From Ruminiclostridium sp. (lineage in GTDB: Bacteria > Bacillota > Clostridia > Oscillospirales > Ruminococcaceae): a stretch of DNA of 36,748 nucleotides. How positions within the stretch are numbered: position 1 is the stretch's first letter; each line of letters begins with the position of its first letter. Below the pieces are notes generated by a model, which had not been told where the DNA came from, did not search any database, and saw only the letters and a program-made list of their open reading frames with translations. Positions 6,078 through 36,748 of this stretch are shown here, piece after piece. Made by a program: the position numbers and the translations under genes. Where the stretch lies: positions 1 through 36,748 of the forward strand of contig JAFVBZ010000227.1 in the NCBI GenBank assembly GCA_017479645.1, given 5' to 3'.

Positions 6078-6812
6078 TTACGGTATGATGCAGTGCATCA
6101 GAAATTCCCTGTTCCCGTCGCCGCCCGTGATCTTTGACGGGACGGTGCGGATATCGGCAAATCCGAGCTGCTCCGCAAATGCGCAGACCTCATCTACCGC
6201 CTTTTTTTGCAGCTTCGGGTCTTTTACCACTCCGCTCTTGCCGAGTTTTGCTTTTCCAAGCTCGAACTGCGGCTTTATAAGCAGCGCACAGACTGCGTTC
6301 TTCGCGGCAAATCCCGGTATCGCCGGCATTATCTGTTTCAGCGATATGAAAGATACGTCCGCGGTTATAAATCCGGCTTTCTCCGGTATCAGCGTCTCGT
6401 CCGCCGCCCGGATATCAAGGTTTTCCAGCGATATCACACGGCTGTCGGAACGCAGCTTTTCAGCGAGCTGGGAGGTTCCCACGTCCACCGCATATACCCT
6501 TTCCGCGCCATTCTGCAGCATACAGTCCGTAAATCCGCCGGTAGATGCTCCGATATCAAGGCATATACAGCCGCGCGGGCTTATACCGAATTCTTCTATC
6601 GCCGTTTCAAGTTTCAGTCCCCCGCGTCCGACATATTTCGTCAGCGCGGACTCCTCCGAAACAGCTATCACTTCGGTCTCGTCAAACTGCTCCGAAGGCT
6701 TCGTGACCTGCTTTCCGTTTACTGTCACACTTCCCTCTTTTATGAGGGCTGATGCCGCAGTCCGGCTTTTCGCAAGCCCCTTTTCGGTAATCAATATGTC
6801 AAGTCTCTTCAT
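6078..6812 (-). CDS. tlyA: TlyA-family rRNA 2'-O-methyltransferase / hemolysin-like protein
   Basis: The 244 residues have an N-terminal S4 RNA-binding domain (about 1-60, RLDILITEKGLAKSRTAA) and a FtsJ-like Rossmann methyltransferase domain. That domain shows KYVGRGGLKLETA, the SAM-binding motif CLDIGASTGGFTDC, and a late KPQFELGK containing the catalytic-type lysine. Members of this family 2'-O-methylate ribosomal RNA (in mycobacteria, affecting capreomycin sensitivity). The older name hemolysin is misleading. It starts 2 bp after the dxs stop and is probably translationally coupled to it. Confidence 0.93.
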   Translation of the reverse strand: MKRLDILITEKGLAKSRTAASALIKEGSVTVNGKQVTKPSEQFDETEVIAVSEESALTKYVGRGGLKLETAIEEFGISPRGCICLDIGASTGGFTDCMLQNGAERVYAVDVGTSQLAEKLRSDSRVISLENLDIRAADETLIPEKAGFITADVSFISLKQIMPAIPGFAAKNAVCALLIKPQFELGKAKLGKSGVVKDPKLQKKAVDEVCAFAEQLGFADIRTVPSKITGGDGNREFLMHCIIP

Positions 6813-6814
6813 TT

Positions 6815-8608
6815 TCAGTTTTCTTCGTTTACCGCACGGACAATCGACTCACGGTCAAGCCCTGCCCGGGAAAGCTGTGTCTCCACATCGGCTGCTGCCG
6901 GAGGAAAATCAAGTGCGGTGATGCGATATTTCCCGGAAAAACCCCGCTCATATATCGCGTAAAGGAACTTCTCACCTATACCGCCGATCCTCATGCCTTC
7001 CTCAAAGAACAGCACCCGCTTATACTGCGCAGCCGTGACCGCTGCTTCTTCCGGTATCGGGAATATCTTCAGCAGCGTCAGCGTATCCGCCCCGTCTATA
7101 CCCGAAACGTTCTGCGCAAGCCTGCCGTATGTGACCACGAGCGTGTCTGATGTTTTTCCGGAGTAGTAGATATCACTGTATTCGTCGGGTCCGCCGGAAG
7201 GACAGGCGCCCCTCGGATAACGCACGGCGGCTATACCGTCTGTATCGTTCAGAGCCTTCTCAATGCACATAGACAGCGTGGCTTCATCGAACGGAGACCA
7301 TATCTCGGTACCCGGCACGCCGGTCAGCATCGGTACATCATATATACCCTGGTGCGTTTCGCCGTCCTCGCCTACAAGTCCCGCCCTGTCTATGAACAGC
7401 ACTATGTGTTTCTTCTCTATCGCAGCGTCGTGCAGCAGCTGATCGCAGCAGCGCTGGAGGAATGTTGAATATACCGCAAATACCGGCAGCATTCCCTGCG
7501 ACGCAAGTCCGCATGAGAATGTGAGTGCATGCTGCTCCGCGATGCCGACATCAAAAAAGCGTTCGGGGAAATGCTGTGCCATGTGCTCCATTCCTGTCGC
7601 ATACTTCATCGCGGCAGTTACCGCGCAGATACGCTCATCATTATCCGCAAGCCCCGCAAGCTTCCTGCCGGCTATCTCGGAAAAGCTCCGGCTGCCCGCA
7701 CTGCGGCTGTAACGGCGCGGGATACCGTGGTATTCGCCGGAGTTGAGCTCCGCCGGCTTATATCCCTTCCCCTTTTTCGTCTTTACATGAACTATGCACG
7801 GCTCACCGGTGATCTTCGCTATCTCAAGCATCTCGATAAGCTTTCCAACATCGTGGCCGTTCACCGGTCCGTAATATTTGAGTCCGAGACTCTCAAAGAT
7901 GTTGCTCTGGTATATCGCAAACTTCACAAGATCCTTCGTCCCGCTCAGAGACTTTGAGATCTCCTTGCCGACGGAGGAATGGGACAGGAACTCCTTCACT
8001 GCCTCTTTCTTGTCGTAATATGAACGCGTCGAGCGCATACGGGTGAGATAATCCGCAACCGTACCCTTGCTGCGCGATATAGACATTTCATTGTCATTCA
8101 ACACGATTATGAGGTTTCCCATATCATGCCCGATATTGTTGAGACCTTCGTAAGCTTCGCCGCCTGTAAGCGCGCCGTCCCCTATGACAGCCACAACATT
8201 CCCCGGCTTGCCTTCAAGCTTCATCGCCTTTGCAATACCGAGCGCCGCCGAGACGGAAATGCTGCTGTGACCGCCGATAAAGGCATCATGCTCACTCTCC
8301 GTACTGCGCGGGAATCCTGAGATACCGCCCGCGGAACGCAGTGTCCCGAACTTTTCATATCTTCCGGTAATGATCTTGTGGGTATATGACTGATGCCCGA
8401 CATCAAACACTATCTTGTCGTCGGGTGTCGAAAAAACGCTGTGGAGAGCTACCGTAAGCTCCACCGTTCCGAGGTTCGAGGCGAGATGCCCGCCGGTCCC
8501 GGAGACCTTCTCTATAAGGAAAGCCCTTATCTCATCGCAGAGCTGCTTTTTCCCGGCGAGATCCAGGCTTTTGATATATTCGGGGGAAATGTTGTCCGAT
8601 AAAAGCAT
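6815..8608 (-). CDS. dxs: 1-deoxy-D-xylulose-5-phosphate synthase
   Basis: DXS condenses pyruvate and glyceraldehyde 3-phosphate in the first step of the MEP isoprenoid pathway and uses thiamine diphosphate. The 597 residues show DVGHQSYTHKI, FIGGHSS, the ThDP motif GDGALTGGEAYEGLNN...ND, and the transketolase pyrimidine-binding part with DVGIAEQHALTFSCGLA and DRAGLVGEDGETHQG. Length is close to the usual 600-640. AAAGGA precedes the ATG. Together with ispA two genes upstream it brings isoprenoid-precursor synthesis and prenyl-chain formation into one transcription unit. Confidence 0.97.
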   Translation of the reverse strand: MLLSDNISPEYIKSLDLAGKKQLCDEIRAFLIEKVSGTGGHLASNLGTVELTVALHSVFSTPDDKIVFDVGHQSYTHKIITGRYEKFGTLRSAGGISGFPRSTESEHDAFIGGHSSISVSAALGIAKAMKLEGKPGNVVAVIGDGALTGGEAYEGLNNIGHDMGNLIIVLNDNEMSISRSKGTVADYLTRMRSTRSYYDKKEAVKEFLSHSSVGKEISKSLSGTKDLVKFAIYQSNIFESLGLKYYGPVNGHDVGKLIEMLEIAKITGEPCIVHVKTKKGKGYKPAELNSGEYHGIPRRYSRSAGSRSFSEIAGRKLAGLADNDERICAVTAAMKYATGMEHMAQHFPERFFDVGIAEQHALTFSCGLASQGMLPVFAVYSTFLQRCCDQLLHDAAIEKKHIVLFIDRAGLVGEDGETHQGIYDVPMLTGVPGTEIWSPFDEATLSMCIEKALNDTDGIAAVRYPRGACPSGGPDEYSDIYYSGKTSDTLVVTYGRLAQNVSGIDGADTLTLLKIFPIPEEAAVTAAQYKRVLFFEEGMRIGGIGEKFLYAIYERGFSGKYRITALDFPPAAADVETQLSRAGLDRESIVRAVNEEN

Positions 8609-8641
8609 TCCTGCGCGTCCTTTCGTTTATTCTTGATGTCA

Positions 8642-9133
8642 TCACATCGGGAATACGAATCCGATCAGTATTCCGAGCAATGCTCCACAGAGCACCTGTA
8701 TAGGCGTGTGTCCGAGAAATTCCTTGAGATCCTTGAGCTCGTCGCCCTCGTGGCTCTCGGATTCGATATCGACTTCCTCGTCAAGCTTCTCTACTATCTC
8801 GTCGTCAAGCTTATCCACTATCTTGCGGAGCCTGTTTATCTCTCGGGCATGCTGACCTGCTTCACGGCGAACTCCGCAGGCATCGTACATTACAATGAAC
8901 GCGAATGACATCGCCAATGCCGCTTCCACAGAGTTCACTCCGCGCACACGGCAGGTCATCATCGCCAGCGAACAGACGAATGCAGAATGAGAGGACGGCA
9001 TTCCGCCCGCTCCCCATATCCGCTCCAGCCTGAACGTTCTGTATTTGACCGCATATATGATCGTTTTGAGCACCTGTGCCGTGAGCCAGCTCGCCGCAGC
9101 CGCAAACAGCACCACATTTATATATTCAGACAT
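8642..9133 (-). CDS. Divergent PAP2 family membrane protein (DUF212)
   Basis: The 163-residue protein matches the divergent PAP2 (YuiD/DUF212) family. It has an N-terminal hydrophobic segment, then GAGGMPSSHSAFVCSLA, which is the PAP2 phosphatase SxxH core, then a hydrophobic stretch followed by DACGVRREAGQHA. A charged region rich in E and D (about 100-140) follows, and a last segment carries the family's GHTPIQVLCGALLGI. Four or so membrane segments are likely. The ATG at 9133 is chosen because AAGGAA precedes it and it lies 1 bp after the ispA stop. Its position between ispA and dxs makes a role in isoprenoid phosphate metabolism plausible but unproven. Confidence 0.9.
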   Translation of the reverse strand: MSEYINVVLFAAAASWLTAQVLKTIIYAVKYRTFRLERIWGAGGMPSSHSAFVCSLAMMTCRVRGVNSVEAALAMSFAFIVMYDACGVRREAGQHAREINRLRKIVDKLDDEIVEKLDEEVDIESESHEGDELKDLKEFLGHTPIQVLCGALLGILIGFVFPM

Positions 9134-34318: not shown

Positions 34319-34774
34319 TCATTCTTCCATTTGCTTTGAGAAATACATAGCCGCAGCCTTTACAAGAGCGGTCTGTTCCGGTGTTGCATACTCGCTTCCG
34401 CTTCCGGAAAGCATTACTACCGCCCCGTTCACATCTCCCTGCGCAACGATCGGCGCACAGGCTATTGCATACTTATCCACGCCTTCGATAGGGTTTATGC
34501 GCTTGTCCTCAAGAGATGCGTAAACAACAGGCTTTCTGCCCTCGATCACATCTTCGAGTGAACTCGAAACACGCCTTTCAAGCACTTCCTTCTTCTGCAT
34601 TCCCGAAACTGCGATGACATGATCTCTGTCGCATATCGCCGCAGGACACCCGCCTATCTTCGCGAGCACCTCTGCGTACTGATTCGCAAGATCGGATATG
34701 TCACCGACGGGCGAATACTTCTTGAATATCACCTCGCCCTCGGAGTTCGTGAATATTTCCAGCGGGTCGCCCTC
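34319..34774 (-). pseudogene. spoVT: 3' part of spoVT, cut off from its 5' end
   Basis: SpoVT is the forespore regulator that tunes sigma-G genes; it has an N-terminal AbrB DNA-binding domain and a C-terminal GAF-like domain. Here about 151 codons survive, from EGDPLEIF to QMEE, without stops and with conserved family residues, which argues against long-term decay. The start codon and the first ~29 residues (the MKATGIVRR...EIRRT region known in B. subtilis) are absent and replaced by recombinase sequence. The gap fits insertion rather than internal deletion. Confidence 0.85.
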
Positions 34775-36475
34775 ATTGATAACATTGACACGGTAGACCT
34801 TGTCCTTCCGGTTCGCGGAGGACTGTACGGCGGTCTGTGAGATATCTGCCGTGCCTTGATTAAAATTTATGGTTTCCGGCTTTTTTGTGTCGATATGAAG
34901 TATTCTGTCCACATCAGCTTTCAGCTTCACATCAATGTGGTCTTCATAAACAAGGATCCTGTCAACTATCGTGTTGATGTCCCGCTTGTCGAGCCTGTCT
35001 TTTTGCAGTATATCGTCAAATACCTGCATAACGCTCTTCGCCGCGCGGTTTGTCCGTATAATCGTATTTGCATTGTCGGCTGCAAGGATAAGCTGGTTCT
35101 GTATCCCGTCGATCCTGTCCTGTGCGTCGCTTATAAGCTCGTCATACGTCTGCTCGATAAGTGACGCATTATCTCCGGCTTTCAGAACATCACGGGTCTT
35201 TTGCTTTATGAGCTGTTTCAGCTCCTCCTTCTCTTTCTCCATAAGCTCGCCAAGCTGTTCCGCAGCTGCAAAACTGTCGCGGGTTGAGGTTTCTTCATTC
35301 CTTATCGACTCTTCGAGGACTTCACGCATATCAGCCGAGTTATCACGGACTTTAAGAATGTATGATCTCAATATATCATCGAGCAGGTCTGTCCTGATGT
35401 GGTGAGATGTACAGCCCTTCTTACCCCGTTTCTGATACGCTCCGCATATATATGCCGGTTTCAGGTCTTTCCGGCTCATCGCAAACATCGGCGACCCGCA
35501 GTCCCCGCAGAACAGCACCCCGGTGTACATATTCTCATTCTTGCGGACTCCCCGGTAACTGTTTGTCGTTCTCTGTTTCATCAGTTCCTGCGTTACGGCA
35601 AATTCACTGTACTCTATGATCGCAGGGTGATGATTTTCAAAAACGATATGCTCGCTTTCGTCCGTGCGCATATCTGAGCCGTTTATCTTTGTGCGCTGCC
35701 ATTTATGCTGCCTCAGCGTTCCGATATAGAAGTCATTCTCCAGCATCTTCTGTATCGTGATTATGCTCCAGCTGTCCTTGACTTTCAGCCTGCATTCTCC
35801 TCCGTCACGCTCGATCAGCTCTTTCTGACGCATTCTCGGTGTGGGATAATGCCGATCGGTAAGGTAATTTGCGATCTTCTTGTATCCCCAGCCCTCATTG
35901 TACAGCCGGAACACCTCGCGGACGATCGCTGCTGCCGGTTCATCTGCCTCAAACAGCCCCTTTTTGGTGTTCGTCATCATATAGCCGTATGGGACACTGC
36001 ATATCCACTCGCCCTTGTTCTGACGGCTCTGAATGACTGCGCTGACCTTTTTGCTTGCATCTGTAACAGGCATTTCGTTCACAAAAAAGTACAGCTTTAT
36101 CTTCATCCAGTCATCATTCTTCGGGTAATCAACTCCGTCCCCTATCGCAATTATGCGTATCCCGGTCTCGATAATGTCCTCAAATTCGGCAAGTCCCTTC
36201 CCCGTTCTTCTTGAAAAACGGCTGAGATCCTTTATGATGAGAATGTCGTAAGTGTGATCCATGAGCAGCGGGCGAAGCTGCATATATCCCGGACGCTGAT
36301 TGAACGTGTACCCCGATCTGTCGCGGTCTTCGTAATAATCAACATTGGCTGTCGGAAAATGAAGTCTGCAATACTCGCCGATGATCGCTTTCTGGTTCTC
36401 GATACTTGTGTTGTCCCTGTCAAGCTCTGTGTCCACGGATATTCGGGTGTAGGCTGCTATTTTCAGACTGTCCAT
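34319..36475 (-). CDS. Large serine recombinase fused in frame to SpoVT C-terminal region
   Basis: The 718 residues start with a serine recombinase catalytic domain (about 5-150; YTRIS with nucleophile S13; KDLSRFSRR). The recombinase domain follows (about 165-275), then a zinc ribbon (CGDCG, C323 and C326, then CGAYQKRGKKGC), a coiled coil (about 395-480) and a DUF4368-like end (RDINTIVDRILVYEDHIDV). After a ~20-residue linker, residues 568-718 are SpoVT: EGDPLEIF, GEVIFKKYSPVGDISDLA, AICDRDHVIAVSG and the end AAAMYFSKQMEE. The SpoVT part lacks only the first ~29 residues of the ordinary 178-residue protein. The ATG at 36475 has GGAG upstream; an ATG at 36493 lacks one. The recombinase is probably the integrase of an element inserted in spoVT. 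Confidence 0.93.
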   Translation of the reverse strand: MDSLKIAAYTRISVDTELDRDNTSIENQKAIIGEYCRLHFPTANVDYYEDRDRSGYTFNQRPGYMQLRPLLMDHTYDILIIKDLSRFSRRTGKGLAEFEDIIETGIRIIAIGDGVDYPKNDDWMKIKLYFFVNEMPVTDASKKVSAVIQSRQNKGEWICSVPYGYMMTNTKKGLFEADEPAAAIVREVFRLYNEGWGYKKIANYLTDRHYPTPRMRQKELIERDGGECRLKVKDSWSIITIQKMLENDFYIGTLRQHKWQRTKINGSDMRTDESEHIVFENHHPAIIEYSEFAVTQELMKQRTTNSYRGVRKNENMYTGVLFCGDCGSPMFAMSRKDLKPAYICGAYQKRGKKGCTSHHIRTDLLDDILRSYILKVRDNSADMREVLEESIRNEETSTRDSFAAAEQLGELMEKEKEELKQLIKQKTRDVLKAGDNASLIEQTYDELISDAQDRIDGIQNQLILAADNANTIIRTNRAAKSVMQVFDDILQKDRLDKRDINTIVDRILVYEDHIDVKLKADVDRILHIDTKKPETINFNQGTADISQTAVQSSANRKDKVYRVNVINEGDPLEIFTNSEGEVIFKKYSPVGDISDLANQYAEVLAKIGGCPAAICDRDHVIAVSGMQKKEVLERRVSSSLEDVIEGRKPVVYASLEDKRINPIEGVDKYAIACAPIVAQGDVNGAVVMLSGSGSEYATPEQTALVKAAAMYFSKQMEE

Positions 36476-36508
36476 ATCATAAACACACTCCATATATTTA
36501 TTAACAAC

Positions 36509-36537
36509 ATTGTAACATATAGAGACTGTTTTGTCAA
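36509..36537 (-). promoter_or_regulatory. Sigma-A promoter of the recombinase gene
   Basis: On the minus strand TTGACA (36537-36532), a 17-bp spacer and TACAAT (36514-36509) with extended -10 TGT form a near-consensus vegetative promoter 33 bp upstream of the ATG at 36475. Confidence 0.85.
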
Positions 36538-36748
36538 TAGCGAGTGTGGATTATATATGGTAACAGCCGGTCAGAGCCGGAACGGATAAAGGAAAGAGCC
36601 GAGGGAATGACCCGCCCCCTGTCAAGTAGACAGCGCAAAAAACAAAAACAATCTACGTTGTGACTAAAAGCAGTCTGTGCAATTTGTGCAGGCTGCTTTG
36701 TTGTTATCAATTGGCAAGCCCCTTTTGAAGTGAGGAGCGTAGCGACGA
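36538..36748. other. Non-coding end of window with two inverted repeats
   Basis: No convincing gene is seen in this stretch. It holds CTGTC-AAGTA-GACAG (36619-36633) and a longer hairpin of 11 bp with one mismatch (36667-36677 with 36689-36699). Read on the minus strand, that hairpin is followed by TAGTCA after CTTT and may be a terminator of an upstream element gene. The last bases (GAGGAGCGTAGCGACGA) resemble a motif I associate with mobile elements of gut Clostridia, from memory only. Confidence 0.5.

Follow-up and report, generated by a model that had tools for sequence, protein, structure and literature searches.

What brings a large serine recombinase and the sporulation regulator SpoVT into one continuous reading frame, and is the resulting protein peculiar to a single genome? 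The ORF that raises this question lies near the end of the window, by which we mean the whole stretch of DNA analysed: 36,748 nucleotides that constitute the entire contig C59 of Ruminiclostridium genome G000 (275 contigs, 3.31 Mb). An earlier sequence-only reading had described the frame as open throughout and had interpreted it as a mobile element inserted in spoVT with its integrase at the boundary. The minus strand is indeed without a stop from 34319 to 36493, giving 724 amino acids, or 718 from the ATG at 36475 that is the start common to relatives, while stops interrupt the plus strand across the same interval. The features on which the argument rests are these:

34319..36475, minus strand: int-spoVT fusion ORF, 718 aa (ORF reading, start common to relatives)
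34772..36475, minus strand: large serine recombinase part, residues 1-568 (Pfam and alignment of relatives)
34319..34771, minus strand: spoVT 3' half, GDPLEI to stop, with the SpoVT_C/GAF domain (Pfam, TIGR02851)
34764..34771, minus strand: att core GGCGACCC, common to the 5' half on G000:C8 (sequence match)
34772..34790, minus strand: int-side attP arm, within the int frame (arm comparison)
36494..36748, no strand given: element side of the contig, ended by the contig end
28414..34275, minus strand: host gene lying downstream of spoVT, 1953 aa, resembling a helicase by eye (also the neighbour in G061 and G072)

The recombinase had been described as complete, with intact S13 and zinc-ribbon cysteines, and this was borne out: on the 724-residue form Pfam placed Resolvase at 12-163, Recombinase at 187-308 and Zn_ribbon_recom at 323-375, and S13 together with C323, C326, C344 and C355 is invariant across 10 relatives. 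These three domains and the catalytic serine identify the window fusion as a member of the large serine recombinases (LSRs), and SprA/YokA of SP-beta ranks with the best matches of the recombinase among LSRs of solved structure. The proposed in-frame junction to SpoVT, from GDPLEI to its natural end, is equally apparent, with SpoVT_C matched at 598-723 of the same form (119 bits) and TIGR02851, the SpoVT model, matched over its positions 21-180 with 139.7 bits, below a whole-protein cut-off of 235.9 that the intact SpoVT proteins of the genus also fail to reach. Since the SpoVT part begins at residue 569 (GDP), the first 30 residues of SpoVT are absent. An AlphaFold2 model assigned low confidence to residues 529-570, between a long helical stretch and the SpoVT part, and values of 80-91 per block to the SpoVT part from residue 591; the overall pTM is only 0.39 and the model does not fix the placement of the domains.

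The absent 5' end was found in the same genome. A SpoVT profile search of G000 returned the 3' half in the window, one 5' half on the minus strand of contig C8 (2524-2625), and a third match of 11.8 bits that was taken as noise. The ORF containing the 5' half (G000:C8, L048:2449-2655, minus strand) reads MKATGIVRR...RIREGDP and then continues into other sequence (MKATGIVRRIDDLGRVVIPKEIRRTMRIREGDP then PLITLRQSVFCEAVIALNKRLCGTLER), as had been predicted for an ORF that would break at the same codon. Joined at GGCGACCC, the two halves yield a SpoVT of 180 residues, 174/180 identical to the intact protein of G011; spoVT is broken at its Glu-Gly-Asp-Pro codons. No complete spoVT, the second copy that would have spoken against an insertion, was found in the window genome, either by the profile search or in the genus-wide table of 72 genomes. 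The same table supplied the anticipated empty-site relatives, 40/72 genomes having a full-length or nearly full-length spoVT; among the 10 genomes with the int fusion, a full-length spoVT occurs in none and a 5' half in 7/10. The presence of the 5' half in the same genome, interrupted at the same codons, supports an insertion in spoVT with the integrase at its boundary. In the window genome the ends of the element lie on two contigs, C8 and C59, which share no exact end overlap of at least 15 bases, and the element is not seen whole.

The earlier reading knew of no description of an element in spoVT with such a fusion; comparison of genomes shows the fusion to be one member of a widespread family. 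In the genus it occurs in frame in 10/72 genomes. When named species were scanned with only the int part, 357 relatives were retrieved, of which the best 80 were kept; 73 of these are fusions, comprising 71 complete SpoVT_C fusions and two that read into SpoVT before the contig ends. The other seven comprise one ended by its contig, four with attP-like or other tails, and two that read into the antisense of the 5' half. The two sets overlap, L076-L082 and L144 being contigs of genus genomes already among the 72. Carriers include many gut and rumen bacteria; near relatives include Ruminococcaceae bacterium UBA3215, uncultured Ruminococcus sp. RUG12593 and Ruminiclostridium sp. RGIG9238 (water deer rumen), and the fusion is present on the complete chromosome II of R. 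bicirculans 80/3 and in the single-contig genome G422. Because the same in-frame fusion recurs in the genus, in named relatives, on a complete chromosome and in a single-contig genome, we judge from these comparisons that neither chance nor misassembly is its source. One record of a phage collection, an unverified fecal contig, covers at least 80% of the fusion, and no record of a plasmid collection does so. Of 394 genomes drawn from across the order, 35 have int, window genome included; the other 34 have a complete spoVT in two cases and only the 3' half in 32, with a 5' half listed for 25/32.

What lies between the halves could be assessed where both fall on one contig. Among 28 relatives chosen from the best 80 named ones for half-to-half distances, 12 have the halves on one contig, in the same direction and 13-85 kb apart, with variable cargo between them (20 kb on R. 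bicirculans 80/3 chromosome II, 14 kb in A. massiliensis AT3, 18 kb in R. flavefaciens ATCC 19208), and three have a complete spoVT; in the order draw, 11 of the 34 int genomes have the halves on one contig in the same direction and two in opposite directions. (G284 and G479 of the 394-genome draw have the coordinates of G107 and G111 of the 28-genome set.) Many relatives having the fusion and no element beyond it would have refuted the earlier proposal: relatives with the fusion are indeed many, but those with long contigs do have an intervening tract of 13-85 kb and a 5' half beyond. It might be supposed instead that large chromosomal rearrangements parted the halves and that no mobile element was involved, since the genes found past the ends differ among genus genomes and mostly look ordinary, and the arrangements in G067, G107/G284 and G134 are of the sort expected. 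Same-direction halves in 12/28 and 11/34 genomes, island-type cargo, and an int that has moved between hosts nevertheless make this explanation highly improbable.

Several loci depart from the usual arrangement. The DNA beyond int in G067 reaches infC-rplT-topA (by eye) by ~9 kb, with no 5' half before it, and this genome contains two slightly different copies of the fusion end, on C12 (L058, L069) and on C24 (L059); the halves are in opposite orientation in G107/G284 and in G134. From these arrangements we take it that some loci have been rearranged. Chromosomal inversion as a general cause, suggested to us by G067, was dropped in light of the same-direction halves, and is retained as a possibility for G067, G107/G284 and G134 only. 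The element itself is inverted in G101, one of the 12 same-contig genomes; in the inverted insertions (L123/L204 of G101, and L148) int continues into the complementary strand of the spoVT 5' half, and the core has the opposite orientation with respect to either int or spoVT. We also rejected the notion of one conserved mobile element across the genus, because genomes differ in the DNA that lies past the two ends; beside the 5' half, shared sequence in the genus is confined to ~250 bases in G000 and G091.

Beside the core, the int-side arm and the arm of the 5' half are inverted copies of one another, and in seven genus genomes the two reside on different contigs. Joined, these inner arms form a near-palindromic attP with inverted arms around GGCGACCC, having the consensus TGTCAATGTTATCAGTGAC-GGCGACCC-GTCACTGACAACATTGACA and its symmetry centre at the GA of the core. 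Both arms were obtained from 22/28 genomes tried (the pattern missed G109, G112, G105, G113, G122 and G123), and in these 22 the arms match at 15.3 of 19 positions in the attP join, versus 6.2 in attB, 4.5 in attL and 6.6 in attR. Arms paired within a genome agree better (15.3/19) than arms paired between genomes (13.6), and 0/20000 shuffles reached the observed sum, kinship being uncorrected in this comparison. Sequence comparison therefore assigns to the system an attP and an attB with a short common core, and symmetric attP arms, as characterize LSRs.

On the other side of the break, the 5' half reads on in frame for 20-32 residues and then stops in 31/35 cases; these 31 were aligned, and the four outside 20-32 aa were dropped. 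The tails of the 5' halves have in common the pattern LxxLT...(F/Y)CxAM..L.KR, and their pN/pS is 0.68 in frame compared with 1.02 and 1.35 in the other two frames, a modest value, synonymous change being saturated. Judged by its position, this peptide of ~25 residues would be the C-terminal tail of Int itself in the circular form of the element, in which case int would span its own attP, and int and spoVT would trade 3' ends upon integration. The proposal that the integrated state yields a chimera is supported, and is extended here: the Int of the circular form probably has its own tail, which would make the swap reciprocal.

We consider it likely that the fusion ORF marks attL of an integrative element, that the serine recombinase gene of this element extends across its own attP, and that tails are exchanged upon integration. 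According to this model, Int bearing its own tail would integrate the circle into spoVT, trading 3' ends to create Int-SpoVT(GAF) and SpoVT(N)-Int tail; excision and with it, we infer, the restoration of spoVT would subsequently be carried out by Int or the chimera together with a directionality factor (the candidate being a protein of ~75 aa described below). The exchange point falls within a probably disordered linker of Int in the structural model, so the recombinase may remain active with the GAF domain attached. Neither a circular nor an excised form was found among the genomes and contigs examined. L276 was considered as a circular form and rejected, being a linear contig that ends at the start of the attP arm with no terminal overlap; the attP-like tails of L124 and L137 are likewise on linear contigs.

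An attP inside int is also found in integrases of the SSV1 type, where integration cuts the integrase gene. There int is broken, whereas in the spoVT element it loses only the tail of ~25 residues and acquires a host domain in frame. The significance of the arrangement lies in an integrase gene that spans its own attachment site, such that integration reciprocally swaps 3' ends with a host regulator, and in the occurrence of this tail-swapping integrase in dozens of species, cultured ones included (R. bicirculans, R. flavefaciens, A. massiliensis).

Among 69 fused proteins, the two parts of the chimera show discordant similarities: L090 and L096 are 95.5% alike in int and 47% in SpoVT_C, and the window protein and L055 are 70% alike in int and 97% in SpoVT_C. 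As the histories of int and SpoVT_C differ, we conclude that the fusion is formed anew at recurrent insertions. That Int and SpoVT_C have no one common history would also be expected if the fusion were a passive by-product, with an attP that chances to sit in the 3' end of int, a dispensable spoVT, and neither chimera nor excision of consequence to the cell; a single attP fixes frame and core, so that each insertion of the lineage gives the same frame, and decay does occur, as is seen from the stops that G451 has in both halves and G004 in its two 5' halves. Decayed halves are few, however, stops being present in 1/34 int genomes of the order draw; 8/9 genus sequences agree completely over the first 32 residues of the 5' half, G089 having one change; and spoIVA is present in 24/26 genomes searched (in one only as a fragment), host genome included, none being found in G089 and G121. 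On balance we regard the by-product explanation as a serious possibility, though one that we do not favor.

Constraint on the halves was estimated in the split genomes of the genus. Mean pN/pS is 0.085 for the 3' half (10 sequences, 45 pairs) and 0.038 for the 5' half (nine sequences, 36 pairs, including G023 and G027), the latter value also pertaining to the seven fusion genomes alone; in nine intact genomes, of wider divergence, it is 0.267 for the 3' part and 0.060 for the 5' part. Because the insertion recurs, part of the low pN/pS may predate the insertions, and continued use of the split spoVT is, from these ratios, likely but not proven. In two genomes an additional 5' half accompanies a complete spoVT, which would fit a second 5' end having been regained without excision: G023 (L072:5580-6143 and 8507-8698) and G114 (C107, 112883-113437 and 163614-163712).

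Cargo varies between elements. Profile matches revealed type I restriction-modification and a relaxase (PF03432) in A. massiliensis, the methyltransferase of a type I system in Eubacterium sp. MSJ-21, a type III restriction enzyme with a Snf2-type helicase in G121, type I-C CRISPR-Cas genes (Cas3 and Cas1 by profile) inside the spoVT element of G101 (L204 = G101:C11 53001-73000), a tyrosine integrase, VWA and PP2C in R. bicirculans, and Fic in G108; phage tail-like genes were recognized, by eye only, beside the fusion in viral contig L156. PADLOC gave no match for a SIR2-like protein (L196:5285-7738) and only weak matches for L191:13420-15345, and Pfam gave none for 3/10 cargo proteins. A protein of ~75 aa recurs near int, as in L060:4194-4424 and L103:9507-9749; 19 were aligned, showing the pattern W-L-T ... 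F-x-S-G ... T-x-x-L, and one strict pattern detected it in 25 of the best 80 named loci versus 0/30 unrelated control loci. Five proteins of this family gave one weak Pfam match and nothing better than E 0.016 in PHROGs, and a model of its fold (pLDDT 72.8) had no PDB match at E 1e-3. Its designation as candidate directionality factor is a guess from position only.

Upstream of int, on the element side, two further features occur in the window:

36509..36537, minus strand: sigma-A-like promoter TTGACA-N17-TACAAT (consensus match only)
36502..36512, minus strand: copy of the attP-arm core (9/11), overlapping the -10; possible Int operator

Promoters of this type, identified by consensus match only, precede int at 10/12 positions or better in 25/45 upstream regions versus 5.6% of shuffles, and the attP-arm core CAATGTTATCA (at least 9/11) lies upstream of int in 52/66 (79%); the corresponding shares are 7.7% among shuffles and 2-26% among stretches within int. 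These sites suggest autoregulation of int, by Int or by the chimera. An extension of this idea is that the chimera is a working regulator, combining DNA binding by Int with the sensor of SpoVT at the attP-arm-like sites of the int promoter. Such sites are frequent enough to invite it, but plain Int could use the same site, the N-terminal 30 residues of SpoVT are absent, and the partner domains do not co-evolve; we consider a regulatory role of this sort unlikely.

Elements that interrupt sporulation genes are known in sigK, spsM, spoVFB, spoVR, gerE and yabG (PMC4191935, PMC5595907, PMC10747680); according to PMC4191935, as far as consulted, such targets are mother-cell-expressed and excision is confined to the mother cell. 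In skin (in sigK) and SP-beta (in spsM), precise recombinase-driven excision rebuilds the sporulation gene, as proposed for spoVT, but excision is confined to the mother cell and the consulted parts of that report describe no recombinase-target fusion (PMC4191935). The gin element in gerE of B. cereus ATCC10987 resembles the spoVT element in being non-phage, encoding serine recombinases, splitting a sporulation regulator and having a short repeat at the break; it differs in that gerE acts in the mother cell and no such fusion is described in the consulted parts of PMC5595907. The criterion of prophage-like sequence applied to intervening elements in PMC10747680 leaves gin outside. In the same source, yin in yabG of C. 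botulinum likewise interrupts a sporulation gene and encodes a recombinase and a putative RDF of small size; unlike the spoVT element it is called a prophage, occurs in one strain and interrupts a SigK-regulated gene, with no fusion described in the consulted parts. Diverse LSRs can share one conserved target gene, as here, according to the LSR catalogue of Durrant et al. (PMC10083194), whose main text, the part consulted, has neither SpoVT nor AbrB. In the literature that our search covered, consulted in part, no report of an element in spoVT or sigG or of an integrase-SpoVT fusion was found. The closest kind is, in our judgment, the intervening element of sporulation genes, from which the spoVT element differs in its in-frame reciprocal exchange with the target and in a target of forespore type.

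A second sporulation regulator is interrupted in the window genome. Its sigG is divided at STYAVP|MI, with one piece on each of two contigs:

G000:C58 (L212:2572-2871) and G000:C271 (L211:515-1024): sigG pieces of the window genome

In the genus, 46/72 genomes have a complete sigG and 10/72 have a piece or pieces ending at STYAVP|MI and no complete copy, the junction having been read in seven of the ten (G000, G008, G034, G061, G063, G078 and G092); G089 has a 3' piece in addition to a complete copy. In G063 a single contig contains both pieces, separated by 14.7 kb, and in G092 a serine recombinase different from the spoVT Int terminates ~100 bases short of the sigG 3' piece and is not fused to it (L213:4928-6382 and 6490-7005; G092:C32).

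In model spore-formers sigG drives spoVT. This dependence on sigma-G is also reported for SpoVT in C. difficile (PMC3738446, consulted in part). Both sporulation regulators are split in four genomes, G000, G034, G061 and G092, and the halves are little decayed, which together with that dependence lends some credence to a program like that of skin, whereby the sporulating cell would regain spoVT by excision, and sigG through a second element. Known cases operate in the mother cell, where the genome is discarded, whereas excision in the forespore would be inherited (PMC4191935, consulted in part), and the int promoter is, by consensus match, sigma-A-like; we entertain such programming tentatively, with some doubt. 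A more elaborate version is a self-recording switch, in which the GAF-tailed recombinase would be a host-gated excision enzyme that senses the cue of SpoVT and rebuilds spoVT only then, so that, with the sigG element, the forespore branch (sigma-G and its co-regulator) would come under the control of DNA rearrangement; we think this rather unlikely. Were it true, it would place under such control a forespore branch for which, in the literature consulted in part, DNA rearrangement is described only in mother-cell genes; and if the host domain gates excision, it would constitute a natural design for a host-controlled serine integrase. Under the tail-exchange model, which we prefer, the element still poses the question of how it can occupy a gene active in the forespore of model spore-formers, where the genome is inherited, against the rule derived from skin and SP-beta. 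The split sigG in the same genome makes this forespore question directly testable.

Possible tandem elements were observed at two loci: L137 (1279-1512 and 9983-11770), where an int with an attP-type tail stands at the contig end, and G112:C12, where two 5' halves are present on one contig.
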